64,000 nucleotides of DNA from Theristus sp. LFF4_11 (taxonomy: Eukaryota; Nematoda; Chromadorea; Monhysterida; Xyalidae). Under the pieces are notes generated by a model. The model ran no database searches. It saw nothing but the letters and a program-made list of their open reading frames with translations, and had not been told where the DNA came from. The position numbers and the translations under genes were made by a program. Shown here piece after piece: positions 1 through 63,724 of this stretch (position 1 is the first letter of the stretch; each line of letters opens with the position of its first letter). Location of the stretch: contig JASANC010001923.1 in NCBI GenBank assembly GCA_030248135.1, positions 62,001 to 126,000 of the forward strand. The letters run 5' to 3'.

Positions 1-944
1 TCCGCACGTCGCTTAATTCAGTTATCGCGTTGGCTTGTGCGCAATGTTGACTGACTGGCGGGCAATGGCAACATTTGGTGTCAAAACACGATTCTGGAAT
101 GAAGAATGAATGTTCAAGCAATGCAATTGTGATCTGAATGGCATTTTTTATTTAGTCGCGCGCCGGTTCCGGAAACCATAAGGTACCAAACTCCGGCGGA
201 AACGTTCCATAGGTTGCATGCATTGCGCCATCGGCAAAAGGTATTTTTGCGTTTTGGACTGTTTAATAATGGTCAATGTTTCGCTTGACATTGGTGTTTC
301 GCAACGTCAGTTAATTTCGTTAGTGATAATTTGTGTTTGCTGCGTCAAGAGTGCGCTGCCCTAAAACCACGTTGCACAATTTTATTACGGTTGACTGGAT
401 CGGAACCAGAATATGGAAAACGTAATGACAATATGGTTTACAAAATTCCTTTGTCACATCAAAATACTTGCGGTTTCCGCGCAACACACGATATTTCACT
501 CTGTAATAAGCTTGTTTTCGTAAATGCGGATTAACTTGAATTAACGACCTTTAATTTTGGGATGTCCACGACTAGCAATTTGTGTTTAGAGTTTAGCCGT
601 CGAATGACAATATATACCGAAACTTTTCATTTTCAATAGATCGAATAGCGTAACGCACAGTTTTTTTTTGGTGATGCCGATGCGCCTACGCACGAAACAA
701 CTCGTCAGTTCAGGTTGAATGACTATTACGATTTCATCATGTTTATTGTTTTTTAAACGCAGCTTTAATTAAAATAACAGCAAAATTTGTATAGTTAAAG
801 AGTGATATGCTACGTGCTCGGTCATTGGAACTGTAATTCATTGTTCCTGAGCCAATGAATTGCAGCCAATCAACCTGATTATTATTACAAGCAACAGCAA
901 CTATATACTCAGTCCAAATAACCACAGCAGGAGAGAGAATTATC
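1..944. other. Region without a supported gene
   Basis: I see no convincing coding exon here. Around 168-196 there is a short motif, TTCCGGAAACCATAAGGTAC, that recurs in altered form near 33225-33305 and 33390-33415, so it is part of a dispersed repeat. The rest is ordinary AT-leaning sequence that presumably includes the promoter of the channel gene starting at 945. Confidence 0.5.
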
Positions 945-3186
945 ATGGCAAAGAAGAGTGTGTCAAAAAGATGGGCCAGCACAACGACGTGGCACGGTTG
1001 GTCTCATCTGCTCGAAACATCCAATTCTTGGGAACATCGCTTCTGGGCTGTAGTCTTAGTGATTTGTACAATTTTTCTAACCATTTCAATCATTTCAACG
1101 GTGACGTCGTATTTCGAATTGCCACCGTTTTCAACGTCGACCCAACGAGTGCACCACCACGCGATTCCATTCCCCGAAATCACACTTTGCAGTTTTAACA
1201 GGTCTGTGTCATTGCAAAAGGCTTGCAGTTTGGTGTTTTCTCTAATCCAGTTTTCTTGGTGGCATAGTTAATGTATTTCATTGGTAGGATCCTCAAGTCA
1301 GCTGCCGCACAATTCGGCCTGACCGATGAAGCCTTATTTCCACCGTTGTTGAGCGCCCTAGACGCAACGTACATTGCTCCAAAATATCGCTTCAACCAGG
1401 TGCCGCCATTTTTTTGAATGTTACATCAGTCACATGCGAGCTACAGTGAAAAGATATGCACAGAGCACAATAGAGCGCGTGCTTGCGTGGCATCGTGGCA
1501 GCGGCCGGAACATGTCGGTTGCAGAGCTGTTTCGTGTGCTGGGCATACGATGCATGCAGACGCTGGTGACGGCACGCAACGGCGATGACAGCTACTTCAA
1601 CGACAACACCGGCCGCCACGTTTGCTCGACCATGAAAAACGCGCGTGTTGCAATCCGTGAGATCGTCGATTCGACCTACGGAAAATGCTTTCGAATGACG
1701 TTCGCCGTCAACGTTACGGCTGGAGGTTTACTTTTCAAAAATAACGTTTTTTTCGTTGTTTTTTTCTCGAAAGACGATCCCATTGGAACTTTTGCCTTTT
1801 GTACGTTTCTGTTTGTTCCGTCAGTGTTTGATGTGCGTTTTCTTTCACAGGCATGAGCGGCGGGTTATCGTTTCTTTTTGTGGAGAACCCCGGCGAACAG
1901 CTGAAGGTGGTTGAGAATAATTTCTGGGACAGCGGTTATGCGATGTTTTTCGGTGACTCGTCCGAGTTTGTGCCGCTTATGCCTGGCTTTCGCACGTTGA
2001 TCGCACTGCGAACCACCGAGAAAACATTCAGAGAACCCGCGCTAAATTTACCAATCAAAAAGGGCTGTGTTTTTGAACGTGAGCCTGTCACGTACGCAGG
2101 TTGATGATTTTTGGACAACATTTGGTTTGTTTTTGACACTGGTGAATCAGACAGATCAACCACCAGAAAAAGTGTCCACCATGGTCTTCTTCAGTTGACA
2201 AGAATAAGCCGACGACGCAAGAAGAGTGCCGTCGGGAATGTCGTACGTTTTTTTTCCACGATCAATTTTGCGGATGCACGCGACTTCGTGACGGGCACAA
2301 CATGTCAGCATGTACCTTGGAGAAAGAACTACAATGTGCTGCGAAGTTCTACAACGAAACAATAGCTATCGTTGATGTGGCGACGTTAGAAGAATGCGTA
2401 TAAATTTTGCTTTTCAGTACTGATGTTTATTATACAGAGTGTTTAAAAAACTACAATTGGCAAAATGACTCGCTCTCGAGTTTGAGTTTGGAGCTAAAAT
2501 TTTAAACATTTTGAACTAAAATAATGTGAACTTGCAGACGTGAAAGGAATTTTTGTTCAGAAAAATTACCGTAGTTCTCAATTGTTGTTTGAAAATTTGA
2601 GCTAAAACGGTCAGACAATTGGATCCCTTCCTTATCAAAATTATTATGTTGCAGAAACTTGAAACAGAAGGTAGCCAATTGTGAACAGCGATATTGCCGT
2701 CCGCTTTGCAATGGACGAACGTATTTCGTTCGAACTGCGATCAGCAAATTCCCAGCGGATTCACTGCGACAGTCTTTGGACACTTTTTATAATCAATCAA
2801 TTGCCAAGCTGAACCTAAGCACCGTCGGCATAAACCTTGTCGGTGCAGATATTTATTTCGACACGTTGGATGTTAATGTAAGTTGATGATAAAAAACATA
2901 ATCATTGTGCCCGTTGCTGTGGACTGTGGAGTCGCTTTTGAAACCTTCAGTATCTTTTTCAAAAATACACATTGTAAACACTGAACGCCGCAAACATTGT
3001 TTTAAAAAGGTTACGTTTTAGGTGCTAGAAACCTATCAACGTGCCAGTATCATCGATGTAATGAGCGACCTTGGCGGACAGCTAGGCCTCTGGGCAGGAA
3101 TCAGCTGGATGACCGTATTTCATCTGATAGTATCATGCTGTTGTCGCCCATTATTTTGTCGCAGTGAAGACTTGGATGAAAAATGA
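945..3186 (+). CDS. DEG/ENaC (amiloride-sensitive) sodium channel subunit, 7 exons
   Basis: A member of the degenerin/epithelial sodium channel family, which forms trimeric plasma-membrane Na+ channels. My model joins 945-1201, 1288-1399, 1464-1725, 1851-2099, 2195-2397, 2668-2877 and 3022-3186, with matching phases at every junction, giving about 485 aa. A short cytoplasmic N-terminus precedes TM1 (about residues 33-57). The extracellular domain starts with FPEITLCSFNR, the family's post-TM1 motif, and contains GGMSGGLSFLF, the cysteine pair CRRECR, FCGCTR and a CEQRYCRPLC segment. The last exon has the pre-TM2 and pore signature LGGQLGLWAGISWMT, including the G-x-S selectivity filter (GIS), followed by TM2 and a short tail ending SEDLDEK. 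The domain order is complete but the protein is at the short end for the family. The start is the first Met before TM1. Which DEG/ENaC subfamily it belongs to cannot be told from the sequence alone. The exon 3 acceptor (1463) is the least certain boundary. Confidence 0.88.
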
Positions 3187-4252
3187 AATAAGCAACATGT
3201 ACAGGGTGAATAAAAACGGTTCTTTTTTATTCAAACGCAGACGGATTTTGCTGAAAATTTGAGCTTCTCACAAATAGGAAATTTTGTTTTTGCTCACAAA
3301 AATTAACCCTACTTAAGGCCAATTCATGCACGACGTATACATTCATTCATGCCATCCGGCACGTCACGTCTGATACGTCATGTATGAATGCTCTTGTATA
3401 AACGTGCACGTGTTTTAAAGACAACGTGAAGTGCTGGATTGCTGTTTTTTTTGTTTCATGAATGTGACGTGACGTGACGTGACATGGTGTGTCAGATAGT
3501 TTTATTGTGTATGAATTGGCCTGCAGGATTGTTGGCTAATTTTTGCAGCAGTTGCCATAATTCGCATTTGCACCAAAATTCTCTTTTACTTTTTGTTTTT
3601 CTTGCACAGATCAGCAATTTGCACACACATTCCTTGACGTATCCCCACAAAAAAATCACCGGTGTCTAATAAGGCAACCTTGGTATCCACGGCGCATAGC
3701 CTTATCAACTGATAGGTTTGCTTTGAAACTGATCGCAGAGAAGCACCAGGAAATGGGGCAGCATTGTCAGGATGCGAACACAAACAATTAACGAAACTGC
3801 TGAGAGTTTGTTTCGAAAAAAAAACAAAATCGAATTTTCTCGAATATAAGTCAAAATAACGTAATCCCACAATTTTTTGCGCGGAAACAAACTTCCCATC
3901 CTTGAGAACTTCTGTTGAGAGTTTCAGCGAAATCCTTCACTGTTTGCTTCCAAAATTCAGTACCGTCTTTTTTACTCACCCTGTAGCTGAAAGAAGAAAC
4001 TGGAAATAGAACTAAGAACTGTACTTTAGTTTAGAATGTTATTCATTTTTATAATCCAAGTTTTGGAAAAAGATGGTTGATAGGTGTGACGTTCTACATT
4101 TTTCCGCCTCGTTTGCATATACACACGCATTTTATCGGAAATATTGATATGAAATCAGAAGGTACAATACTGCTAGCGACATAAGCCATCGAGTTAAAAA
4201 ATTATCCTGTGAGTAATTGTGTTGGTTTTTTTTCCAAAAAGGCTGGACTATT
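3187..4252. other. Intergenic region with a foldback repeat
   Basis: No gene is supported. At 3318-3525 a pair of inverted ends (GGCCAATTCATGCA near 3318, TGTATGAATTGGCC near 3508) encloses alternating GACGT/ACGTC motifs including GACGTGACGTGACGTGACA. This looks like a MITE of about 200 bp. The remainder is AT-rich. Confidence 0.45.
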
Positions 4253-7200
4253 TCAGCGGCGTCCGTAACTTCCATAACCGCCGTATCCCCCACTGTTATT
4301 GTATCCTCCACCTAAATAGCGTCTCAACATCCATTGATGTCATGTAATTAGGTGATTGATGAAGACTTGCCGTATCCGCTTGAGCCATAGTCATAGCCAC
4401 CCGAACCGTATCCGCCATAGCTGCTATAACCGCCGTATCCACCATTGTAATCATATCCTCCGCCTAAACAAAAAACATTTTATCATTTGTTGACGCCATG
4501 TAGTTGGATGATTCGTTAAGACTTGCCATATCCGCCAGAGCCATAATCGTAGCCACCCGAACCGTATCCGCCATAACTGCCATAACCACCGTATCCGCCA
4601 TTGTAATTGTAACCTCCACCTAAATAGCATTTTATCATTTGTTGACACCATGTATAAAGTTATAGACGTTTTAAGGTTAGGGCTTGCCGTATCCGCCATA
4701 GCCATAGTCGTAGCCACCTGAACCGTATCCGCCGTAACTGCCATAACCGCCGTATCCACCATTGTAATCATATCCTCCACCTAAATAGCATTTTAACATT
4801 TATTTACGCTACGAAGTTCGTTGATTTGTTAAGACTTGCCGTATCCGCCAGATCCATAATCGTGGCCACCCGAACCGTATCCGCCATAACTGCCATAACC
4901 ACCGTATGCGCCACTGTAATCGTATCCTCCACCTAAAATACAGAATTTTACCATATAATGAGGTCAGACAATTTGGTGATTTTTTAAGACTTGCCGTATC
5001 CGCTCGAACCATAGTCGTAGCCACCTGAACCGTATCCGCCATAGCTGCCATAACCACCGTATCCACCATTGTAATCATATCCTCCACCTAAATATTATTT
5101 TATCAGCTATTGACGCCATATATCTATAGTTAAATAATTTTTAAGACTTGCCGTATCCGCTCGAACCATAGTCGTAGCCACCCGAACCGTATCCGCCATA
5201 GCTCCCATAATCGCCGTATCCACCATTGTAATCATATCCTCCGCCTAAATAGAAAAGCATTTCATCATCTATTGACGCCATGTACATGTAGTTACATTAT
5301 TCATTACGACTTGCCGTATCCGCCAGAGCCGTGATCCCAGTCACCCGAACCGTATCCGCCATAGCTGCCATAACCGCCATATCCACCGTTATTATAATCG
5401 TATCCTCCACCTAAAATATCTAGTAGATACAGAATTTTATCATATAATGACGTCAGGCAGTTTAGTGATTTTTAAACCGCTCGAGCCATAGTCGTAGCCA
5501 CCCGAACCGTATCCGCCATAGCTGCCATAACCGCCGTATCCACCATTGTAATCATATCCTCCACCTAAACAACATTTTATCATTTATTGACGCCATGTAT
5601 ATAGTTATCGACGTTTGATTAAGGTTAGGGCTTGCCGTATCCGCCATAGCCATTGTCGTAGCCACCCGAACCGTATCCGCCGTAACTGCCATAACCGTCG
5701 TATCCACCGTTATTATAGCCGTATCCCCCACCTAAAATACAGAATTTTATCATATAATGACGTAAGGCAGTTCAGTGAGTTCTAAACCGCTCGAGCCATA
5801 GTCATAGCCACCCGAACCGTATCCGCCAAAGCTTCCATAACCGCCGTATCCACCATTATAATTGTATCCTCCACGTAAAATACATGATTTTATCATATAA
5901 TGACGTCAGGCAGTTTGCTGATTTTTAAGACTTGCCGTATCCGCTTGAGCCATAGTCGTAGCCACCCGAACCGTATCCACCATAGCTGCCATAACCGCCG
6001 TATCCACCATTGTAATCATATCCTCCACCTAAACAACATTTTATCATTTATTGACGCCATGTATATAGTTATCGACGTTTGGTTAAGGTTAGGGCTTGCC
6101 GTATCCGCCATAGCCATTGTCGTAGCCACCCGAACCGTATCCGCCATAACTGCCATAACCGCCGTAACCACCATTGTAATCATATCCTCCACCTAAAAAA
6201 ACATTTTATCATTTATTGACGCCATGTAGTTAGATGACTCGTTAAGACTTGCCATATCCGCCAGAGCCGTAATTGTAGCCACCCGAACCGTATCCGCCAT
6301 AACTGCCATAACCACCGTATCCGCCATTGTAATCGTATCCTCCACCTAAATAGCATTTTATCATATGTTGACACCATGTATATACAATACAGTTATAGAT
6401 GTTTGGTCAAGGCTAAGGCTTGCCGTATCCGCCAGAGCCATAGTCGTAACCACCCGAACCGTATCCGCCGTAACTGCCATAACCGTCGTATCCACCGTTA
6501 TTATAGCCGTATCCTCCACCTAAAATATCTAGATACAGAATTTTATCATATAATGACGTCAGGCCAGGCAGTTTAGTGATTTTTAAACCGCTCGAGCCAT
6601 AGTCGTAGCCACCCGAACCGTATCCGCCATAGCTGCCATAACCGCCGTATCCACCATTGTAATCATATCCTCCACCTAAACAACATTTTATCATTTATTG
6701 ACACCATGTATATAGTTATCGACGTCTGGTTAAGGTTAGGGCTTGCCGTATCCGCCATAGCCATTGTCGTAGCCACCCGAACCGTATCCGCCATAACTGC
6801 CATAACCGCCGTAACCACCATTGTAATCATATCCTCCACCTAAATAACATTTTATCATCTATTCACGCCAAGAAGCTCGATGATTCATTAAGACTTGCCG
6901 TATCCGCCAGAGCCATAACCGTAGCCACCCGATCCGTATCCGCCATAACTGCCATAACCACCGTATCCGCCATTGTAATCGTATCCTCCACCTAAATAGC
7001 ATTTTGTCATTTGTTGACACCATGTATATAGTTATAGACATTTGATTTAGGTTAAAGCTTGCCGTATCCGCTAGAGCCATAGTCGTAGCCACCCGAACCG
7101 TATCCGCCGTAACTGCCATAGCCGTCGTATCCACCGTTATTATAGCCGTATCCCCCACCTAAAATACAGAATTTTATCATATAATGACGTCAGGCAGTTT

Positions 7201-8194
7201 AGTGATTTTTAAGCCGCTCGAGCCATAGTCGTAGCCACCCGAACCGTATCCGCCATAACTGCCATAACCACCGTATCCGCCATAACTGCCATAACCACCG
7301 TATCCGCCATTGTAATCGTAACCTCCACCTAAAATACAGTATTTTATCATATAATGACGTCAGGCAGTTTAGTGATTTTTAAGCCGCTCGAACCATAGTC
7401 GAAGCCACCCGAACCGTATCCGCCATAGCTGCCATAACCGCCGTATCCACCATTGTAATCATATCCTCCACCTAAATAAAAAGCATTTTATCATTTATTG
7501 ACGCCATGTAGTTGGATAATTGGTTAAAACTGGCCGTATCCACCAGAGCCATAATCGTAGCCACCCGAACCGTATCCGCCGTAACTGCCATAACCACCGT
7601 ATCCACCACTATAATCGTATCCTCCACCTAAAATACAGAATTTTATTATATAATGACGTCAGGCAGTTTGGTGATTTTAAGCCGCTCGAGCCATAGTCGT
7701 AGCCACACGAACCGTATCCGCCATAACTGCCATAACCACCGTATCCGCCATTGTAATCGTATCCTCCACCTAAAATGCAGAATTTTATCATATGATGACG
7801 TCAGGCAGTTTAGTGATTTTTAAGCCGCTCGAGCCATAGTCGTAGCCACCCGAACCGTATCCACCATAACTGCCGTAATCGCCGTATCCACCGTTATTAT
7901 AATCGTATCCCCCACCTAAATAGCATTTTATAATCTGTTGATGCCGTGTATGTGCATAGTTTTTTTGGTAGAGCTTTGTATTGAACAAATCACCATATCC
8001 GTTGTATCCGTGTCCTGAGTATCCACCGTAACCGTAGCGGGAAACCACGTATCTTGAATCTGTGATGACATGATTATTATCACAAGTACATTTCGTTGGT
8101 TCTTTACACGCATACTTTCAGAGTTACCTGTTAGTTTCATTGAACAAACTAAGATGGCAACAGCCATCAGCATCGTAAAGCGTGTCGTCGACAT
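4253..8194 (-). CDS. Secreted Gly/Tyr-rich repeat protein made of 23 cassette exons, mostly with GC-AG introns
   Basis: Unrecognised structural-type secreted protein. Exon 1 (8128-8194) encodes a signal peptide beginning MSTTRFTMLMAVAILVCS. Exon 2 (7994-8059) encodes a short unique start, then come 23 repeat exons and a last exon (4253-4311) ending YGSYGRR-stop. Repeat exons, 3rd to 25th: 7826-7915, 7683-7769, 7535-7627, 7385-7471, 7215-7328, 7063-7158, 6899-6991, 6747-6839, 6589-6675, 6424-6519, 6253-6345, 6100-6192, 5936-6028, 5788-5874, 5636-5731, 5478-5564, 5315-5410, 5152-5244, 4995-5087, 4840-4932, 4688-4780, 4527-4619, 4371-4463. Each is 87-114 nt, a multiple of 3, and phase 1 at both ends, so any can be skipped or duplicated in frame. 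Each encodes a cassette such as GGGYDYNGGYGGYGSYGGY. Introns are 55-78 bp and nearly all end TTTAG. Twenty of the 23 donors read GC (GCAAGT, GCAAGCC, GCTTAA or GCCAGT); only those of exons at 6589, 5788 and 5478 read GT (GTTTA). The full product is about 776 aa. By composition it resembles cuticle, adhesive or matrix proteins, but its role is inferred only. Confidence 0.8.
4312..8127 (-). repeat. Tandem array of exon-intron units in the Gly/Tyr-rich gene
   Basis: The locus is a tandem duplication array with a unit of about 150-165 bp (one cassette exon plus one intron). Introns fall into recurring types. One carries TATCATATAATGACGTCAGG, another carries TTATTGACGCCATGTATATA and ends in TTAAGGTTAGGG. 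The same ordering of intron types recurs, which suggests that blocks of several units were duplicated together. One cassette (7215-7328) holds an extra internal 27-nt copy of the Gly/Tyr motif. Confidence 0.85.
5788..5874 (-). CDS. Cassette exon of the Gly/Tyr-rich gene with a mutated splice acceptor
   Basis: This is the only cassette whose preceding intron ends TTTTAC rather than TTTTAG on the coding strand (plus strand reads CCACGTAAAA where the others read CCACCTAAA). It is otherwise intact and in frame. With the AG lost it is probably skipped, which keeps the frame because the exon is 87 nt and phase 1-1. The product would then be about 747 aa. Confidence 0.7.
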
Positions 8195-9940
8195 CGTTTT
8201 CTGATATCTATAGTTTTCTTTTATGTTTGAAAAAGATTACTCAGAGTTCAGCGGTTTCGGTAATCATGAGCTCTGGCTGGACTGTGATTTTTGGACCTGT
8301 GTTTGATGCGAATGTAAATGCGTGTTATTTCAGACTGGTTGTGCGTTGGTGGGCTTTTTGTTTGTTGAAATGACAGGTGAATAAAAAATAGTGTGAAGCG
8401 TTCGTGCAGTAGTCCTATATAAACAAAACATTGTACAATACAGATTTTTTTGTATTCCGCAACTGGACTCTTCAATCACATGTGACTTTTAATTAAAAAG
8501 CATTGCTGGACGGTGCTTAAAAATATGTGAATAATAAGAAATTTATAAGTTATTTGCATTTGATTGTTTAAATTTGAATTTGCAGTTGCAATACACATAA
8601 AATGCAATGCAGTTATAATGCAAATCTTCCCGTATACTCCAAAAAGCACATGGTCAGTTTTAGTGTAAGCGAGCACTGAGCGTAAATTGCATTTATTAGT
8701 TTTGCTTTAACTGGACATTTTTTATTTTGTTAATGTTTGTAGAAGAGCAGCTGAAAATTTTTAACGGGTATGAAGTTGAAACACATGAATTTTTTAATGG
8801 AATAAATGCTGCAAAAATTATCCACACCCTCCATGATTTTGAAAACTGTATTCATCCGTCAGTTTTTTTATGTTTAAAAATCTCAATCACGCATTTTAAA
8901 TGAAAAGACACGTGTCTCGACGTCACACCTTCCAGTTTGATGATCTTGAATTAGATTCAGGGTGTTTCAACGTCAAAAAAACTTGTGAACACGTTCTGCA
9001 ACTGCAGTGTTCTTTTACGCTGAAATGTTCACCAATGATATTTATTGTTTGCGTTGCCATGCACTGTGTCAAAATTCCAACCAAAAGAAGCTACCGTAAT
9101 CCGTCAACAATGGGACATGTCTGAGACATCGAAAAGGTTTAAAAACTTGGAATTCACAGCATATTACGCACGTACAAACAGTTGACAATAATAGGTTAAC
9201 CGACTTTGACATGCATTGTGAAAGATCTGAACCGGCGGCGCGTTGGGTTACACAGCGGCAGCAGTTGCACAACATTCAAAAGTCATACTGCCTGCTGGAT
9301 AATACGCGCTGCTCTTTACTTATATAGCCTCATCGAGAGCAACATTCACACCGCAGCATTGCATCGCAAATTATGCCGCAGAATCACGTTAGTTAAATGG
9401 AGACCTGAGTTTATGGAGCATGTCGAAAGTACAACGGACAATATGTAAGGTCACATCAGTTGAACTTGAAATTTATGTACGTGGCGCTTGCTTGTAACTT
9501 GATCGTGCGCGACATATTCCAGCGTCAGACAGATGCGCGTTATGTTTGTGCGCTCGTTCCGGGGTCACAGATCACATATAGCACAGACACGTGTGGTTTA
9601 CCTGCTGCTTCCGTTCTGCATAAAATCTCAGTGGTTGCAGAGGTGGCGTGGGGTAATTTGAACTGCAAAACGGCGGTTGACAGTTGCGTTTGACGCGTGC
9701 ACCCGTAGCAACGACCAACTTGTTGCGCAACACAACTAAACGCAGTCTCGCTTACTTGTGTTTCAAAAATACATTCACAAAACCGTGAGAGCGACCACTT
9801 TGCAGTGTGTGGAAAAATCTAGAAAGACACTGTATCGTCGCTTTTTCAATGTACATATTTGAATTGATAGTTATTCGGTTTCTTTAGGTTCATCAATTGG
9901 ATTGGATACGTTTTTCGTCGATCAGTGATTTTTAACAAGA
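8195..9940. other. Intergenic region, nothing recognised
   Basis: About 1.7 kb between divergently transcribed genes (Gly/Tyr-rich gene on minus, troponin T on plus). It must hold the promoters of both. I see short unsupported open frames only, no repeats of note and no RNA gene that I can recognise. Confidence 0.4.
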
Positions 9941-15392: not shown

Positions 15393-16560
15393 GATTTCGC
15401 CTATGCTATTTCTACGGCCGATTCGCTCGAAATCGTTACGATTCAGTATCTAGAGTTGCTCACAAAAAACCAACCCAAAATCCGGGATCAGTGCATTGAA
15501 TTACTCTGGAAAACAACCTTTTCTTGTTTTTCGTTTCTAGAACGATTTCGCCAACTTCCACGGCCGATTCGCCCGAAATCGTCACGATTCAGCATCTAGA
15601 GTTGCTCACGTAAGAAAACTAACCCAAAATTCGTGATCAGCGCATTGAATTACCCTGGAAAACACCCTTTTCTTGTTTTTCGTTCCTGGACCGATTTCGC
15701 CAACTTCCACGGCCGATTCGCCCGAAATCGTCACGATTCAGCATCTAGAGTTGTTCACGTAAGAAAACTATTCCAAAATTCGTGATCAGCGCATTGAATT
15801 ACCCTGGAAAACCCCCTTTTCTTGTTTTTTGTTCCTGGACCGATTTCGCCAATTTCCACGGCCGACTCGCCCGAAATCGTCACGATTCAGCATCTAGAAT
15901 TGCTCACGTAAGAAAACTAACCCAAAATTTGTGATCAGCGCATTGAATTACACTGGAAAACACTTTTTTCTTGTTTTTCGTTCCTGGACCGATTTCGCCG
16001 ATTTCCACGGCCGATTCGCCCGAAATCGTCACGATTCAGCATCTAGAGTTGCTCACGTAAGAAAACTAACCCAAAATCCGTGATCAGCGGATTGAATTAC
16101 CCTAGAAAACACTCTTTTTCTTGTTTTTCGTTCCTGGACCGATTTCGCCAACTTCCACGGCTGATTCGCCCGAAATCGTCACGATTCAGCATCTAGAGTT
16201 GCTCACGTAAGAAAACTAACCCAAAATTCGTGATCAGCGCATTGAATTACCCTGGAAAACACTTTTTTCTTGTTTTTCGTTCCTGGACCGATTTCGCCGA
16301 TTTCCACGGCCGATTCGCCCGAAATCGTCACGATTCAGCATCTAGAGTTGCTCACGTAAGAAAACTAACTTAAAATTCGTGATCGGCGCATTGAATTACC
16401 CTGGAAAACACCCTTTTCTTGTTTTTCGTTCGTGGACCGATTTCGCCGATTTCCACGGCCGATTCGCCCGATATCGTCACGATTCGGCATCTAGAGTTGC
16501 TCACGTAAGAAAACTAACCCGAAATCCGTGATCAGCGCATTGAATTCTACGGACTAAACA
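15393..16560. repeat. 149-bp satellite array, about 8 copies
   Basis: Successive copies of GATTTCGCC start at about 15393, 15544, 15693, 15842, 15991, 16141, 16290 and 16439, a period of 149-151 bp. Each unit contains CACGGCCGATTCGCCCGAAA, a stretch around CATCTAGAGTTGCTCACG, and GTGATCAGCGCATTGAATTA. Copies in the middle are nearly identical and the first and last are diverged. A second array of the same satellite is at 37185-37860. Confidence 0.9.
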
Positions 16561-34582: not shown

Positions 34583-35027
34583 TACCGTATTACCTCTAAT
34601 AAACTTCCATGGGGGTTTATTTCTTCAGCGACTTCTGGGGGTGGGGGTTTATTTTTGGGGGGGGGGTTATTTTTTAGGGGGGTTTATTCACAAACAAATT
34701 CTAGGGGCGGGGGTTTGTTGAAAAATGGCAAAAATAGCTTGCATGGCAGGCAAGAAAGTCGCAGAAACTTCTACTTTTCACAGAAATTTCCTTTTGTAAC
34801 AGCCTTTTGTAATGAAATTACCACTAACTCATCCCTTTGGGGCCTTTGGTAGCACAATGTCACCAATGTCACTGCATTCAGCCACTGAATTCGCTAGGTA
34901 TGTGTTTCAAACAGGTTTCTAATAAACCCCCATGGGGGTTTATTTGGGGGGGGGGATTATTTGGAAACTTGTTGAGGGGGTGGGGTTTTTATTTTTTGGG
35001 GAGGGGTTTAATAGAGGTAATACGGTA
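34583..35027. mobile_element. MITE with TACCGTATTACCTC ends and G-runs
   Basis: Ends TACCGTATTACCTCTAATAA and TTTAATAGAGGTAATACGGTA are inverted copies and are consistent with a TA target duplication. The interior has repeated GGGGGTTTATTT blocks with runs of 6-10 G. A second nearly full copy is at 59206-59676 and a 3' fragment at about 44535-44573. Confidence 0.85.
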
Positions 35028-37184: not shown

Positions 37185-37860
37185 GACCAATTTCACCCAT
37201 GCTTTTTTCGCAGCCGATTCGCACAAAATAGTAGTCACGATTCAGTATGTAGAGTTCCTCACTTATGAAAACTAACCCAAAATTCGTGATCAGCGCATTG
37301 AATTACCCTGGAAAACACCCTTTTCTTGTTTTTCGTTTCTGGACCGATTTCGCCAATTTCCACGGCCGATTCGCCCGAAATCGTCACGATTCAGTATCTA
37401 GAGTTGCTCTCATAAGAAAACTAACCAAAAGTCCGTGATCAGCGCATTGAATTGCCCTGGAAAACACCGTTTTCTAGTTTTTCGTTTCTGGACCGATTTT
37501 GCCAATTTCTACGGCTGATTCACCCGAAATCGTCACGATTCAGTATCAAGAGTGCTCACATAAAAAACTAACCCAAAATCCGTAATCAGCGCATTGAATT
37601 ACCACAGACTAGACAATTTTCCTATTTTTTGTTTCTGTCGCAATTTCGCCAATTTCCACGGCCGATTCGCACAAAATCGTCACGATTCAATATCAAAAGT
37701 TGCTTACGTTAGAAAACTAACCCAAAATTTGTGATCAACGCATTGAATTACCCCAGACTAAACAAATTTCCTATTTTTTGTTTTTGGACCGATTTTGCCA
37801 ATTTCCACGGCCGATTCGCCCTAAATCGTTACGACTTTGGTTATTTAGCTGCTATTCCTT
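37185..37860. repeat. Second 149-bp satellite array, about 5 copies
   Basis: Same satellite as at 15393-16560, with unit starts near 37186, 37345, 37494, 37642 and 37790. The copies are more diverged than in the first array. Confidence 0.85.
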
Positions 37861-45300: not shown

Positions 45301-45951
45301 TTCCTGACCAGATTTTTTTGCATTTTTGTCAAAATTTGGTCATTTCTTTACTTCGGTACAATCAACTATGAAGCGGGATTTTTAAGTGTTTGTATGGTGA
45401 CCCCGTTTTGCCCCACTGACACTGCAATTGTGCTTCTTAGGATCTGATATGCTCTGCTCAGCTGTTGTTTCTTTAAACTAGCCTTCTTTCTTTCATGGCG
45501 TGAAATCAACAGTCAGTCAAAAACAACAGTGACGCAGGTGACAAAAATTTAAAAAAATGTTTTCAGGTGTTAAACGTTATATCGCACAACGCCATTGTAG
45601 ACCTATAACACCCACCAAACAACAAGATCTCATGTTCATCTCATGGCCTACCGACTGAAAAATGTGTTCTAATAAATCGAATTTTCAGAGCAAATAAAAA
45701 AATTATTCAATTTTTTTTTAATTTAAAAAAATCCGGATTAAAAAAACGAAATTTTTTTTTTCAAACTCCCTAACCCTACACATATGCCCCTCCCGCCCCC
45801 CCCCTAAAATTTTTCAGCTGTCTGTCCATCTGGAAAATTTGCTCCAGCTATCTATATCGCCCCCCCCCCCCAACCACCCGGCTGTGGAACAACTATGATT
45901 TAGGATCATGATTCATGACCACAGAATCGCCAGTCGCCACGCCACACCACA
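42351..45951. other. Repeat-rich region without a supported gene
   Basis: Holds the second LINE 3' fragment (43100-43250), repeated CTTTCGTGGACGAAAG hairpin motifs at 44035-44115, and A-rich sequence at 44390-44480. It also holds the MITE end fragment at 44535-44573 and C-runs at 45790-45875. Small open frames around 44740-45120 on minus have no coding character that I can defend. Confidence 0.45.
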
Positions 45952-47565
45952 ATGCAAACCGATTCACTTCGTTTCATGTGCCTGAACGCAGTGGTGCGCG
46001 ATGCTCGCTGCGTGCACATGGCTGGCACGCTTTTGAATGCGGCAACTCGAGCACAGATTCTCTCCTGGATGATCGCTCACAATCAGTTGGAGCTGTACGC
46101 CCGAGAAGCACCAGCAGTCGAACAGTTGCTGCGTGAACCGCTGACACTGCGACAGCTTGAGTTGTGTTTCGGTCGAGAAATTACCGATCCGAGTTTTTTC
46201 GATTGCTTCAACGAAACAAGTTTCTGCAAAATCGAGTCACTTGTGTTAAATTGCTACTTCTTAACGCTGGGTGGTACAGCCAGCGATCTGTTGGGCAAAT
46301 TTCAAAACCTCCGTTCTCTGGAAGTCACTGAGTTGAACGCAACACCGAACACATTCGTCTCACTGAACGTTGCCAATCTGGAACGCCTTGCCGTCTGTCT
46401 GTACGTCAGAGACCCGGACTTTCGGGATTTCGACGAACTGGTCTCACACGGCCGCGGCACGCTTCGCGACTTCACGTACGTGAAACGGGGCACGTCACTG
46501 CCGAACGAGGATCTGCTGTTGGTGGCGATCAGTGTGCACTTATCGAGCTCGTTGGTGCATTTTGAGTTGAGTAACTTCAGCGCCAGCGGGCCGATTCTGA
46601 TGACGACGCTGGTCGAGTGCCGCCATCTGAAAACCGTGAAACTCTGCGGCAATTTTCAGTTGTCGCCGACGGAGATGCGCATTCGCGGCGGCGATCTTCG
46701 CTGGGAGACGCTTGATCTGGCGTTCAAGGTGTCGCCGCCGTACGAGACGTACGTTGCGCTGCAGTATCTGCCGACGACGTTGCTCGAGGTCGGCTATCGG
46801 TTCGGCCCGTCGCAGTTGCCGATCGCCCATCGTAACGTCATCACGGACTCGTTGTGCCGTCTGCCAAAGCTGCGCTCTCTGTTGTACTACACGGAGTTGT
46901 TCAGTGATCGATTGATTGCGCGAATTCTCGAACAGTTTGGCGGTCAACTGGAAGTGGTGGACGTTGGTTTGGCGGATCAACTGACGGACGTTGGCATCGC
47001 AGCGATTGGCGAGCGATGTGCCACTGGAAAACTGCGAACGTTGATCGTTCACAGCGACACGAATCGCTACAATCGCACCTGCTTGGGTGACGGCTTGATT
47101 TCATTGGTCGAAAATCCGCGTTGTGCCAATCAGCTGACGACAATCTACTTTAATTATTTCAAAGCTTTATCAGCGGAACTCTTGTTTGCCATCGCTGCGA
47201 ACTGCTGCCGTTTGCGTGAGCTGCATTTAGCTGGTGTTCGATCGGTCCACGATCGATTTCTGTGTGCTTTATCTGATTCGTGTGCTCAATTGTCGATTCT
47301 GGATCTGCGTGCCTGCTGGAATATTACTGATACGGGTTTAGAGTTCATCGCTCAAAAATTACGCTTGGAATATCTTGACATTTCGATGTGCATTCGCTTG
47401 AGTGCTGCTTCGCTGGTGTCTTTGCGCCGAACGCAACGTGCGACGCTGCGAACGCTGATTCTGAACGGCATACCAGGCATTGCGTCGAAGTCACCGGCGA
47501 TGCAGGAGCTGCACGACCTTTGCTGGCATCGTGTGAAACCGTATTTTTATTCTTGGTCGAATTGA
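45952..47565 (+). CDS. Intronless leucine-rich-repeat protein, 537 aa
   Basis: A single open frame of 537 codons starting MQTDSLRFMCLNAVVRDA. From about residue 60 to the end it is a chain of leucine-rich repeats: LTLRQLELCF, IESLVLNCYFL, LRSLEVTELNA, LERLAVCLYV, and later cysteine-containing repeats. The late ones include LSILDLRACWNITDTGLE and LEYLDISMCIRLSAASL. The latter are the C-x-x-(I/L)-T/S-D type seen in F-box/LRR (FBXL/AMN1) proteins. No F-box can be seen with certainty in the first 60 residues, though RFMCLNAVVRDARCVHMAG occupies that place. There is no signal peptide or membrane helix. All other genes here are split by introns, so this may be a retrogene. The 3' end has AATAAA at 47597 and lies 190 bp before PEX3. 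Another in-frame start is possible only downstream. Confidence 0.85.
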   Translation: MQTDSLRFMCLNAVVRDARCVHMAGTLLNAATRAQILSWMIAHNQLELYAREAPAVEQLLREPLTLRQLELCFGREITDPSFFDCFNETSFCKIESLVLNCYFLTLGGTASDLLGKFQNLRSLEVTELNATPNTFVSLNVANLERLAVCLYVRDPDFRDFDELVSHGRGTLRDFTYVKRGTSLPNEDLLLVAISVHLSSSLVHFELSNFSASGPILMTTLVECRHLKTVKLCGNFQLSPTEMRIRGGDLRWETLDLAFKVSPPYETYVALQYLPTTLLEVGYRFGPSQLPIAHRNVITDSLCRLPKLRSLLYYTELFSDRLIARILEQFGGQLEVVDVGLADQLTDVGIAAIGERCATGKLRTLIVHSDTNRYNRTCLGDGLISLVENPRCANQLTTIYFNYFKALSAELLFAIAANCCRLRELHLAGVRSVHDRFLCALSDSCAQLSILDLRACWNITDTGLEFIAQKLRLEYLDISMCIRLSAASLVSLRRTQRATLRTLILNGIPGIASKSPAMQELHDLCWHRVKPYFYSWSN

Positions 47566-55574: not shown

Positions 55575-57082
55575 TCAATAATAACGATCACAGTTGTAAA
55601 GAGCATTGATTTTGCGGATGTCGGCTGCACTGAAATCGTCCCGTTGACCCATTCGCTCGGTGTCGGCCGGTGCTTTTGCAACGATTGTCGGTTGGCCGTT
55701 TTTCGAGAACTCATATGGGCTGTAGTGCATTAGGCTGAAACAACAATGACACACGATTATAAAGCACATGTGAGCCATCAACTAACAAACGTGCGCAACA
55801 CTGGAAACAAGAGGCCCTGTGTGCTCGGCCATTACCTGTCATAGTCGTACTCTTCGCCAAAGTCCGTCGTCCATGCGTACGAGTATTTATTGAAGTTTCC
55901 GTAGTGCTCAGGGCTTATATTGGCGTAGTTGACCGTGACCCAATGGTCGCGATCCGGCCGCCCGTGCTCGTGCATGAAGCCGATGGTGTGCATCAGTTCG
56001 TGCATGATGCTGCCCGCCGTTTGCACGCAGCACTCGTTCAGACTGATCGACTGCTTGCCGCCGACTCGTCCAACACAGGAGGCACACAGAGGGCGTGCCT
56101 CGATGGCCACGTAGTCGCGGTCGTCGTCGGCTCGCGGCTGAAACGAGACGCACGTGTGCTCGTGGAAGCGGCGCATCGCGTTTGCGATCATGGCGCGTGC
56201 GTAGCGGCCGAAGCCGGCGGACAGCTCGTACGGCACGCGACCGCCCGGCCACAAGTACGAGCGCCACCTGACGGCACTGCGCGGCGCCCGGCGCCACTCG
56301 TGGACGCCCGCATTGGCGCCGTCAACGACCGACTCCACCTCCAGCTGGTCGTTCATCGCGTCTGTGAGGTTGTAGCCGAGTGAGCGCAGATCAATTTCCG
56401 CCATGGAAGCGGCGTTCCTGAAGTCCTCCGCAGTTAGAAAGCGTTTTTCGGCGGAATTCCGCGTCGAGTTGTTGATCACCTGAAACAAGTCTCGCCAACA
56501 ACAATCTCGTTTTTGTGTTCGCGTTAAAAAAGTTGTACGAGCCGGTGTCTGTATCTCTCCGCCTGGGTGTCCCGGGAGGTGTCCGGTATTCTAAAAATAA
56601 AAGTGCCCCAATCGCCTGTAGTGTGTGCTGCCACTTTTATCTGCGGTACACCACGCTCCACACCACAGGACACCGGAGGCCACCACGCTTTCGTGGTTTT
56701 GTTCTCATGGTGTCAAATTGACACTGTCAATGGTTCCCACCGAATTCCTCATCGCGATGATCGTGTAACTGGGAGAACAGTTTCGACCCACTCTGATATT
56801 GTACATTGGGTTAACGACTGTTTCCACTTTCAAGCTCCGCGTTTGCAAACGATGGAAGCCAATTTTTGTTCGCTAAAAAACTTGGCACGGGCCACGGACA
56901 TATGGTCGGGCATGTGTTAAGAAGCTTGTTGCTGTTGATCTGTTGCTTGTTCTCACAGATGTTCTCACGCTTACATCTTCTTTGGTGATGGTGATCACTG
57001 GAGCGTTGTCGCCAGTTGCGTACTGAGCAGCACAATGCAGCGCAACTACAGCAATCGACAAAACCAACTTTACTCGGTGCAT
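55575..57082 (-). CDS. Astacin-family zinc metalloprotease, secreted, 3 exons
   Basis: Coding exons 57082-56975, 56479-55836 and 55734-55575 join in phases 0 and 2, giving 303 aa. Exon 1 is a signal peptide (MHRVKLVLSIAVVALHCAAQ). A propeptide of about 90 residues follows, ending before the mature start near WPGGRVPYELSAGF. The catalytic domain has CVSFQPR, the zinc site HELMHTIGFMHE followed by HGRPDRD (three His ligands, catalytic Glu and the astacin GFxHE extension) and the Met-turn SLMHYSPYEF at the start of exon 3. The end has the conserved KINALYNC. There are no EGF, CUB or ShK domains after the protease, so it is a minimal astacin. Such enzymes act in hatching, digestion, cuticle remodelling or growth-factor release; which one applies here cannot be told. 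Confidence 0.92.
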
Positions 57083-59205: not shown

Positions 59206-59676
59206 TACCGTATTACCTCTAATAAACCCCCATGGGGGTTTATTTCTTCAGCGACTTCTGGGGGTGGGGGTTTATTTTTGGGGGGGGTTATTTTTGGGGG
59301 GGGGGTTTATTTGGAAACCATTTTTAGGGGTGGGCAAAATGGCAAAAATACCTTCCATGGCAGGAAGGAAGTCGCAGAAACTTCTACTCTACATAGAAAT
59401 TTCCTTTTACAACAGCCTTTTGTAATGAAATTACCATTAACTCATTCATTTGGGGCCTTTGGTAGCACAATTTCATCATTTTCACTGCAACCAGCCACTG
59501 AATTCACTGTTTATGTGTATGTTTTTCTGGGTATGTGTTTCAAACAGGTTTCCAATAATCCCCCATGGGGGATTATTTTGGGGGGGGATTATTTGGAAAC
59601 TTATCGAGGGGGTGGGGGTTTATTTTTGGGGGGGGGTTTAATTTTGGGGGGGGGGTTTAATAGAGGTAATACGGTA
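59206..59676. mobile_element. Second full copy of the TACCGTATTACCTC MITE
   Basis: Same ends and G-run interior as 34583-35027, 471 bp long, with long shared stretches (TTATTTCTTCAGCGACTTCT, ATTTCCTTTT, TCA(T/C)TT(T)GGGGCCTTTGG). CCATGGGGG palindromic motifs lie just inside both ends. Confidence 0.85.
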
Positions 59677-61469: not shown

Positions 61470-63724
61470 TTCGCTGTTTGCGGTTTTGGTTTCGGACACT
61501 CGGCTGGCGCTGCACTGGTGGTCGCACGTGGGCGGCGTCGTGTCGCAGTTCACGTTGGTGGCGACGTTGGTGCTGCTGGGCCTGCACGTGCGCGCGCACG
61601 GCCACATGCGCCCGTTCACCGCACCAATCAACCTGGCCGTCTGCTTGCTCGCTATCGAGCTCCTCTTCATGTTCGGCGTTCACCAGTCGCAGCACTCCGT
61701 TGGTTTTTCTCTATGCACTGCAGTGACTTTGCGTGCACTTGTTCACAGATCAACTGTGATTGGGCGGAGTCACTGTGAAGATTTCCGGCTTCTTTATCGT
61801 GTCAGCCACACAAAAGGGCATATTTTTTAAACTTAGCCTGCTTTTGTGAAAAACACCAAATTGAAACGATGGCTCTGTCGGACTCCCACCGCACATTCGA
61901 TCGGATGGTGCCTTGATGGTATGAGAACGTTTAATGGCGTTCAGTAACGTTCAGTAACGTTCAGTAACATTCAGTAACGTTCAGTAACATTCAGTAACGT
62001 TCAGTAACGTTCAGTAACGTTCAGTAACGTTCAGTAACATTCAGTAACGTTCAGTAACATTCAGTAACATTCAGTAACGTTCAGTAACATTCAGTAACGT
62101 TCAGTAACGTTCAGTAACATTCAGTAACGTTCAGTAACATTCAGTAACGTTCAATGACGTTCAGTAGTGTTCAATCTCAGTGTTTAATGACATGTTCATA
62201 AATTCGCCGCAGGCAACTTGCGCCGTGGTTGCGTTCTGCCTGCACACGTTGTATGCGGGCGTGTTCATCTGGCTGTGCATCGACCTGGTTGACGTCTATC
62301 ACGTCATCAGTGGAGCAGAGACAACGACCACAAGTTCAACGGCGACTACAACAGCCCTGTTTTTGGCGTACGGTTAGAAAAGTAATTTTAAAACATTTTG
62401 AAACCACAAGAATACGATGCGAAGAACTGTGACGTTTGCTTTAACATTCCTCAACCATGTTGTTTTGCTGGATGGTGGCTTATTTTAAAAAAATTGAAAC
62501 TATTTTTCGAAACCACAAATTTGATGTTTCTAAAAATTGAAAACACAACGAAATAAAAAACCGCTGTTCTTGAAGCTGGCGCATTGATTCTCAGCACGTT
62601 CGGCTACGATAGCTGCGTCCATCCGTGCAAACGGACGCAGTGCTTTCTGCAGTCGCCACTTTGGAAACTGGTTTTCGAGACATCCGTCTTCACTGTGGTT
62701 GGTGACGGCAATTGGGGCGTTTGCAGATAAATTTCCCAGTTTTGGTTTTGATGATTCGTAAACGTGGAACCATCAATCAAAATTTGAGATCTGACGCAAA
62801 AAAAAATTTTAAAATTTTTTTATCACAACAACGCAAGGGTTTGCAGTAATCGACATGCAGCCTTTCAAACTATTTTTTCGAAGCACATTTGTTTCGGCTT
62901 TCAGGCGATACTTGCGTGCGCAGTGGCCGTTTACTACAAGATGAGATTTGTACATTTCACGAGAATACTTGAGCTGCATCAGCAAAGATTTCTGTAAGTT
63001 TCCATCATGATCGCACAAATTTCACTTGACGTGACGTAGCACGCATGTTGGTGGGACCCATGCGTTGGTTCAGGCTCTGGACGGCAAGCACCGTTTGCTT
63101 GACAGTGCTGGTGGTCGCGTCGAGGTGTGTGCGGGCGACATTCGCTCTGCATAGAACAGCGGCCTGGGAAACAACGTCCGTTGTGACGCAAGCATCCGTG
63201 GCGTTGCTCATGTTCGGCAGCCATTTGCACGCAAACCGAATGGTAGGACAACTGTTGCAACCAGTAGTGCCTATTGGTTTTCACAATTGAACGCAAAACA
63301 ACTCTTGTTAAAGAGCATTTTTCGGTAGAATTATTTTTAAATTTTACTCAATTGTTCACGGATATGATGCCCCATGCCACCGGCTGCCGTTACTGGTGGG
63401 GTGGTGGTGTGAAATGATTTGATGTAAAAAAACACTAAAAAAACTGTTGCTGCTGATTTTCCTATTTACGTTGCTACTAAATTGGCAACTGAAATGTTTG
63501 AGTTCAGGTGCTATCTAAGTCAGCCCCTTTTCAATTTTTTGATTCACCTTCAGTTGAAACGGCAAGTGGCTGAACTGAAGCAGCAGCAGCCACCGCATCC
63601 AATGCGGCAGGTCTACCCGACACAGAACGTCCATCGCGGTGCTGGCGCTGACACCCAAAATAATGGTAGCGAACAAAAATCAGCGATGTCTTGTGCGGCC
63701 TATTTCAATATTCTAATCGGCTGA
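61470..63724 (+). CDS. Adhesion-type (class B2) GPCR, 7TM region, 5' end not identified
   Basis: Exons 61470-61698, 62213-62372, 62576-62697, 62905-62993, 63074-63242 and 63554-63724 have consistent phases throughout, about 312 aa. The first exon opens SLFAVLVSDTRLALHWW, which resembles the end of a GPS motif (HLTxFAVLM) just before TM1. TM1-TM2 are SHVGGVVSQFTLVATLVLL and INLAVCLLAIELLFMFGVHQ, with the family pattern LLxxELxFxxGxxQ. TM3 is CAVVAFCLHTLYAGVFIWLC, matching CAVIAxLLHYFFLAxFxWMxxE, but with Asp (CIDLVDVYHV) where most members have Glu. TM4 leads to extracellular loop Cys (QCFLQSP), then TM5, TM6 (TASTVCLTVLVVASR) and TM7 (ASVALLMFGSHLHANRM). The tail is Gln/Pro-rich and ends FNILIG. 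No GAIN domain is found upstream; only 180 bp separate this exon from the previous gene model. The receptor is either truncated or has a very unusual ectodomain. Confidence 0.7.
61929..62172. repeat. 10-bp minisatellite in a receptor intron
   Basis: About 24 tandem copies of a 10-bp unit, GTTCAGTAAC or ATTCAGTAAC, between the TM2 and TM3 exons of the 7TM gene. The G/A variants are interspersed, which points to repeated slippage. Confidence 0.95.

Follow-up and report, generated by a model that had tools for sequence, protein, structure and literature searches.

A cassette-exon array with candidate GC donors and in-phase GT competitors

In the nematode Theristus sp. LFF4_11, a window of 64,000 nucleotides (nt) comprising bases 62001–126000 of contig JASANC010001923.1 (assembly, 159 Mb; positions below are those of the window) holds a probable gene for a predicted secreted, Gly-Tyr-Ser-rich protein with 24 near-identical repeats. 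Comparison of the repeat units suggests that in 16 of the 23 internal cassette exons (class A) a conserved GC donor competes with an in-phase GT located 36 nt upstream, while the remaining seven (class B) would use the GT alone. We estimate the probability of this reading at about 0.5.

The gene runs on the minus strand (8194–4253) from an ATG at 8194 to a stop codon ending at 4253, and its cassettes, 23 internal and one terminal, follow exon 1 and exon 2. All 23 internal cassettes have lengths divisible by three and are in phase 1-1, as the initial annotation had claimed without the terminal cassette that we add here; length differences within the exons are 3 and 27 nt, all frame-preserving, and introns of the array measure 55–78 nt. 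Over 253 cassette pairs, mean pairwise identity is 88.7% (0.887) for exons and 72.3% (0.723) for introns. The conceptual full-length protein has 776 residues (G 47%, Y 27%, S 11%), a composition from which a structural or surface role of the predicted product may be guessed. A search for paralogues in the same genome returned at least 22 protein matches, all of which lie inside the array locus.

Measured against the consensus codon, the 23 cassettes contain 91 synonymous and 56 nonsynonymous differences, giving a ratio of nonsynonymous to synonymous change (pN/pS) of 0.184. Reading the alternative frames gives 5.27 and 0.77 instead; the Gly/Tyr frame is therefore real, although the differences counted are not independent events, the copies being related by descent. 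The 23 cassette exons contain no in-frame stop or frameshift. That the array is a decaying or untranscribed repeat devoid of function is consistent with the lost acceptor AG of cassette 14, with seven units that lack the frame-end donor of the others, with the lack of any protein homologue at E ≤ 0.001 among 7987 database candidates, and with the absence of AATAAA or ATTAAA from the 600 nt after the stop; set against a pN/pS of 0.18 and 23 exons free of stops and frameshifts, we consider it very improbable. For class B exons the ratio is 0.08–0.09; calculated pairwise, it is 0.09 for class B and 0.17 for class A. Since class B exons are thus at least as constrained as those of class A, they are probably translated, in which case they would be spliced via the internal GT.

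Two classes of frame end and a conserved GC block

The reading frame places a GC at the end of 20 of the 23 internal cassettes and a GT at the end of three, exactly the count reported in the initial annotation. All 16 class A ends show a GC with donor-like flanks (15 GCAAG[T/C] and one GCCAGT), preceded by ACG or ATG. Around this GC, GGATACGGCAAG is nearly invariant, with a mean heterozygosity of 0.036 upstream of the GC and 0.098 starting at it (12 nt), while its flanks in class A reach 0.22 over the six upstream bases and 0.24, then 0.56, downstream. The seven class B ends, identified by whole-unit alignment, comprise four GCTTAA and three GTTTA and lack 11 bp that in class A contain the exon end and donor. 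A deletion in class B is the likelier direction of this difference, since the 11 bp are kept in units 13 and 19, class A members whose introns resemble those of class B. Class B frame ends are read here as leftovers and not as evident donors. The 20 GC ends are descendants of one or a few founders rather than 20 independent events. The proposal that one GC-donor unit was amplified is supported for class A, where 16 of 16 GC sites sit in the conserved block; in class B, the seven ends (four GC, three GT) appear to reflect deletion of the site. The 3' splice site of cassette 14 (5874–5788) is AC instead of AG, and the intron after cassette 13 therefore pairs a GC end with an AC acceptor; six bases past the lost acceptor, an in-phase AG can be read from the sequence (GTGGAG/GA, where the slash, here and below, marks a real or candidate splice junction).

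Splice donors elsewhere in the genome

To provide a donor baseline, we aligned the chaperonin genes CCT1, CCT2, CCT3, CCT5, and CCT7 (loci L044–L048) exon by exon, guided by 12 database proteins for CCT5, which shares up to 80% identity with full-length nematode proteins, and by human proteins for the other four. Scoring GT and GC alike yielded 58 introns. Forty-one with well-aligned flanks were kept and 17 in poorly aligned terminal stretches were dropped (seven from CCT3, three from CCT1, two from CCT2, and five from CCT7), a choice made after the output had been seen, and introns followed by eye in other genes of the window are uncounted. All 41 kept introns are GT-AG and none has a GC donor, giving an upper 95% bound of 7.0% for the GC share. 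The 17 dropped introns begin with GC in six cases, GT in three, and other dinucleotides in eight; one of the six GC starts, the last of CCT7, is a tentative donor, placed at a genuine exon end with the following exon outside the examined stretch. The donor consensus is G/GTNNG, with G at −1 in 34 of 41, G at +5 in 33 of 41, and a weak T at +6 in 21 of 41. Counts of AGGTAAGT (two, both strands) and AGGCAAGT (three) in 263 kb with the array masked are uninformative as a baseline because donors here are G/GTNNG and not GTAAGT. Positions +3 and +4 of the 41 donors show almost no preference, despite a canonical U1 small nuclear RNA (snRNA).

Two general explanations for GC donors were also considered. 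Genome-wide GC-rich splicing was not seen in the CCT introns, 0 of 41 of which are GC. The U1 search scored the best 41 of 2323 first-look candidates, and the six hits over the cut-off (loci L017–L022) all carry the usual ACTTACCTG, with a seventh, degenerate hit lacking it; the U1 5' end reads AAACTTACCTG, and no U1 variant pairing with GC was seen among these candidates. Searches for U6 snRNA in any genome scanned and for COX1 gave no match, neither of which implies absence from the animal.

Strength of the frame ends and of the internal GT

In a donor matrix without +1 and +2, class A sites rank between the 46th and 83rd percentile of the 41 genuine donors, while all seven class B sites score lower than even the weakest of these donors. 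The four GCTTAA ends are among these seven, which reduces the 20 acting GC donors of the initial annotation to 16 credible ones. With +1 and +2 included, class B sites score −5.4 to 1.4, of which cassette 14 is only just under the genuine minimum of 1.5. The earlier view that the donors are weak is supported by predicted U1 pairing, which is −3.5 to −4.8 kcal/mol for class A GC sites, compared to a genuine median of −5.8 kcal/mol (n = 41) and mostly −3.2 kcal/mol for the internal GT, in an energy that omits any further cost of C at +2. Because class B frame ends score below 41 of 41 genuine donors and yet their exons are constrained, class B would need another donor.

Each of the 23 cassette exons contains 4–9 in-phase GTs, since any glycine codon GGT interrupted in phase 1 provides one. 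The suggestion that no frame-keeping GT lies near the exon end was mistaken: in 22 of 23 cassettes, ACG/GTTC precedes the frame end in phase, by 30 nt in class B and 36 nt in class A, and only cassette 7 has GA at this site. The 11-mer ACG/GTTCGGGT, present in 19 of 23 cassettes, equals the donor of CCT5 intron 10, whose position is fixed by alignment; once the array is masked, 263 kb contain no further copy of it. On their coding strand, the five CCT loci have two copies of the 9-mer ACGGTTCGG, one at that CCT5 donor and one inside a CCT3 intron. When +2 is counted, each of the 23 cassettes has an in-phase GT that scores higher than its frame end, and ACG/GTTC is the top-scoring in-phase site in 20 of them. 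Of the 57 nt profiled, variability is lowest in the run around the internal GT. As a calibration, two of the 41 genuine donors have an unused GT that matches the internal GT's score. The donor score favours the internal GT without proving it.

These observations bear on whether the internal GT could be the sole donor in all cassettes, with splicing ordinary throughout and the GC sites being former donors that are now intronic. Such an arrangement would agree with the absence of GC donors from 41 kept introns elsewhere, with an internal 11-mer that, in 19 of 23 cassettes, matches the CCT5 donor exactly, and with class B frame ends that score below 41 of 41 donors. We nevertheless regard it as rather unlikely, given that cassette 7 has GA at the internal site and retains GCAAGT, that GGATACGGCAAG is conserved in class A, and that neither class shows internal indels between the two sites, where the sequence remains coding-like.

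The stretch between the two candidate donors

The inter-donor stretch (GTTCGGGTGGCTACGACTATGGC..), which would yield the peptides SGGYDYGSGGYG, has a single length in 16 of 16 class A cassettes and a single length in seven of seven class B cassettes, while the introns vary between 55 and 78 nt. For the nine codons between the sites that are common to both classes, the ratio of nonsynonymous to synonymous change is 0.45 in frame versus 4.07 and 1.10 in the other frames (permutation p = 0.03), and 9 of 21 distinct variants are synonymous versus an expected share estimated at 0.233 (binomial p = 0.037). Constraint is stronger over the 12 codons before the internal GT (ratio 0.08) than over the nine after it, and the class B stretch taken alone, with two synonymous and two nonsynonymous differences, is uninformative. 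Past the GC the coding signal ends, with ratios of 7.35, 2.2, and 1.7 in the three frames. Coding-like constraint therefore appears to extend weakly to the GC and then to stop.

That the class A coding signal reaches the frame end also fits the proposal that nearly all cassettes are spliced at their GC (or GTTTA) frame ends and that skipping varies the cassette number, as do the conserved GC block, the phase 1-1 arrangement of 23 of 23 cassettes, and the U1 pairing energies, by which even class B ends lie within the genuine range. This proposal is decidedly unlikely in our judgement, because the matrix ranks seven of 23 ends under the weakest of the 41 genuine donors and every cassette has in-phase GTs. 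Length variation by cassette skipping is itself possible, since every cassette is phase 1-1; alternative donor choice within a cassette is the more specific prediction.

Several points weigh against competition between a GC and an in-phase GT in class A. The donor matrix discriminates weakly, so a better-scoring internal GT proves little by itself: of the 41 genuine donors, 5 score lower than an in-phase exonic GT located up to 75 nt upstream, and 11 score lower than a GT there in any phase. When +1 and +2 are counted, class A sites reach only 1.5–3.3, among the lowest of the genuine scores (minimum 1.5, median 7.6). By U1 pairing, class B frame ends (−1.7 or −2.8 kcal/mol) are not clearly distinct from real donors, since equal or weaker pairing is predicted for 3 to 5 of 41 of these; the internal GT, at −3.2 kcal/mol, exceeds the class B ends only slightly. 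The inter-donor constraint is marginal; it may be left over from a time when the stretch was coding. Moreover, the cassettes are copies of a few founders and not 23 independent cases, and no protein homologue was found in a search whose query was of low complexity.

Proposed splicing scheme

Under the competing-donor reading, each class A cassette would have two competing weak in-phase donors. It would encode about 31 residues when spliced at the GC and about 19–20 when the internal GT is chosen, always in frame, and either choice would produce an identical local junction (..GGATACG/GTGGAGG..). Class B cassettes would be produced in the short form only, via the internal GT, and cassette 14, having lost its AG, could use the in-phase AG six bases on or be skipped in frame. 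Donor choice would then set the length of the product, from 514 residues if all cassettes are short to 776 if all are long. Unequal crossing-over may have expanded the array, starting from a founder with a GC donor. Loss of a donor by mutation or deletion, or skipping of a cassette, would be safe for the frame because phase 1 introns together with frequent GGT glycine codons supply in-frame alternatives. We advance with more doubt a further prediction, namely that up to 16 tandem GC-AG introns function in this gene, against a background of GT-AG in every other intron sampled from the genome, and that an independent GC/GT choice in each cassette generates thousands of frame-safe protein lengths and forms from a single locus.

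Exon and donor coordinates

All features of the gene lie on the minus strand. A possible TATA box (TATATA, 8416–8421), identified solely as a consensus match, is 227 nt upstream of the ATG. Exon 1 (8128–8194) encodes a predicted signal peptide (MSTTRFTMLMAVAILVCSMKLT..), its hydrophobic leader judged by eye, and is followed by intron 1 (8060–8127; GTAACT..ATCACAG, 68 nt, GT-AG, U1 pairing −8.0 kcal/mol). Exon 2 (7994–8059) encodes a Gly/Tyr stretch (SRYVVSRYGYGGYSGHGYNGYG) and precedes intron 2 (7916–7993; GTGATT..TATTTAG, 78 nt, GT-AG, U1 pairing −5.2 kcal/mol).

Among class B cassettes, the frame end is G/GCTTAA in cassette 1 (7826–7915, internal in-phase GT at 7855), cassette 2 (7683–7769, internal GT, GTTCGTGT, at 7712), cassette 4 (7385–7471, GT at 7414), and cassette 5 (7215–7328, GT at 7244), the last of which carries a 27-nt in-frame internal duplication. 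It is G/GTTTAA in cassette 9 (6589–6675, GT at 6618) and cassette 16 (5478–5564, GT at 5507), and G/GTTTAG in cassette 14 (5788–5874, GT at 5817), which has the AC 3' splice site.

Class A begins with cassette 3 (7535–7627), which has the single G/GCCAGT donor and an internal GT at 7570. The site G/GCAAGC is found in cassette 6 (7063–7158, internal GT at 7098), cassette 8 (6747–6839, GT at 6782), cassette 10 (6424–6519, GT at 6459), cassette 12 (6100–6192, GT at 6135), cassette 15 (5636–5731, GT at 5671), and cassette 21 (4688–4780), in which the internal GT at 4723 is weaker (GTTCAG). The site G/GCAAGT is found in cassette 7 (6899–6991, GA instead of the internal GT at 6934), cassette 11 (6253–6345, GT at 6288), cassette 13 (5936–6028, GT at 5971, class-B-like intron), cassette 17 (5315–5410, GT at 5350), cassette 18 (5152–5244, GT at 5187), cassette 19 (4995–5087, class-B-like intron, with a weaker internal GT, GTTCAG, at 5030), cassette 20 (4840–4932, GT at 4875), cassette 22 (4527–4619, GT at 4562), and cassette 23 (4371–4463, GT at 4406). 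The terminal cassette (4253–4311; GGGYNNSGGYGGYGSYGRR) ends in GSYGRR followed by the stop TGA.

Comparison with known systems

An architectural parallel is that of spider spidroins (flagelliform; Argiope MaSp2), which, in the part of PMC9779670 available, have homogenised exon-intron arrays whose introns are on average 97.6% alike within a gene, with unequal exchange discussed as the means of spread. The nematode gene likewise has small repeated exons, a repetitive (here predicted) secreted structural protein, and similar short introns, the exons and introns being 88.7% and 72.3% alike over the 253 pairs. It differs in that its introns are 72% rather than 97.6% alike and of several types, and in its candidate GC donors and in-phase second donors (PMC9779670, partial text).

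GC-AG introns have been described in other nematodes. In Globodera their share is 3.46%, with the consensus CAGG[T/C]AAGT at 3835 genome-wide sites (PMC4901422, in part); the present gene resembles this case in having nematode introns with candidate GC donors and departs from its genome-wide spread, as GC sites are seen here in one array and in 0 of 41 kept introns elsewhere. In Heterorhabditis, re-annotation lowered the GC-AG share to 0.8% from 8.9%, a figure that had come with as many as nine of these introns in one gene, which serves as a warning on GC introns inferred without RNA (excerpt of PMC5906903). Intron 10 of C. elegans let-2 has a GC donor in regulated alternative splicing, as described in the accessible portion of PMC2490688; in contrast to that single intron with regulated exon use, 16 candidates are found here and a competing in-phase donor is proposed.

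At the level of the product, the NLP/CNC antimicrobial peptides of C. elegans are likewise Gly/Tyr-rich (PMC2453101, partial text), secretion here being by prediction, but are peptides, whereas this gene would encode 514–776 residues in 24 cassettes. As regards sequence homology to this family, the low-complexity query matched no database protein at E ≤ 0.001 among the 7987 candidates. The nematode epicuticlins (Asu-EPIC-1) have a signal peptide and tyrosine-bearing tandem repeats whose number differs among clones (PMC9612446, available sections). Both a signal peptide, predicted here, and tyrosine-bearing tandem repeats are shared with this gene; epicuticlin repeats, however, lie in one exon and carry YGD/GYR motifs, in contrast to one exon per repeat and a Gly/Tyr/Ser composition here, where YGD occurs in two of 24 cassettes (1 and 18) and GYR in none of 24. 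Judged by titles and the opening of abstracts, in a coverage that leaves most subscription journals outside, the papers listed for tandem exon arrays with GC donors included none on a gene like this one. On the same basis, no such gene was among the matches listed for GC-AG introns in glycine-rich tandem genes or among those listed for GC-AG introns in nematodes.

Other features of the window and sampled loci

Upstream in window coordinates, a probable DEG/ENaC channel gene (880–3186, plus strand) was recognized by eye; two of its exons were searched and gave no Pfam hit, and its introns are GT-AG wherever the frame could be followed by eye. Two astacin protease genes lie on the same contig, at 55600–56590 of the window (minus strand) and at 3404–5349 of locus L030, one found by Pfam and the other by eye, and both appear by eye to have a GT-AG intron before SLMHYS/SIMHYS. 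A conserved neighbour protein at 45919–47562 has four weak matches only.

The repeats of the window include two tandem arrays (15408–16546 and 37234–37834) with a shared-looking satellite unit of ~149 bp, a 10-bp repeat, CGTTCAGTAA, in ~23 copies (61938–62166), and telomere-like short repeats of the TTAGGA/TTAGGC type that are internal to the contig (28864–28893 and 29316–29415). A G-run/TTTATTTT motif (GGGGGGGGGGTTTATTTT) at 34636–34682, 59259–59314, and 59609–59661 is perhaps one dispersed element. Long tandem repeats that are open in several frames occur at L039 3629–6029, L034 8982–10000, and L032 434–1120 (HMATSAPHGDKRTTWRQ, GGALAVRWCACRQVVRLP).

Implications

If the GC sites are used, the gene would constitute a natural experiment in which 16 near-identical GC donors stand beside in-phase GT competitors, with seven GC-deletion "knock-outs" in the same gene, and donor choice could be read from one transcript. 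If they are unused, the gene would instead serve as a caution that frame continuity in glycine-rich repeats can mimic GC introns. A phase 1, GGT-rich repeat gene of this kind may be buffered against the loss of splice sites, the alternatives keeping the frame.

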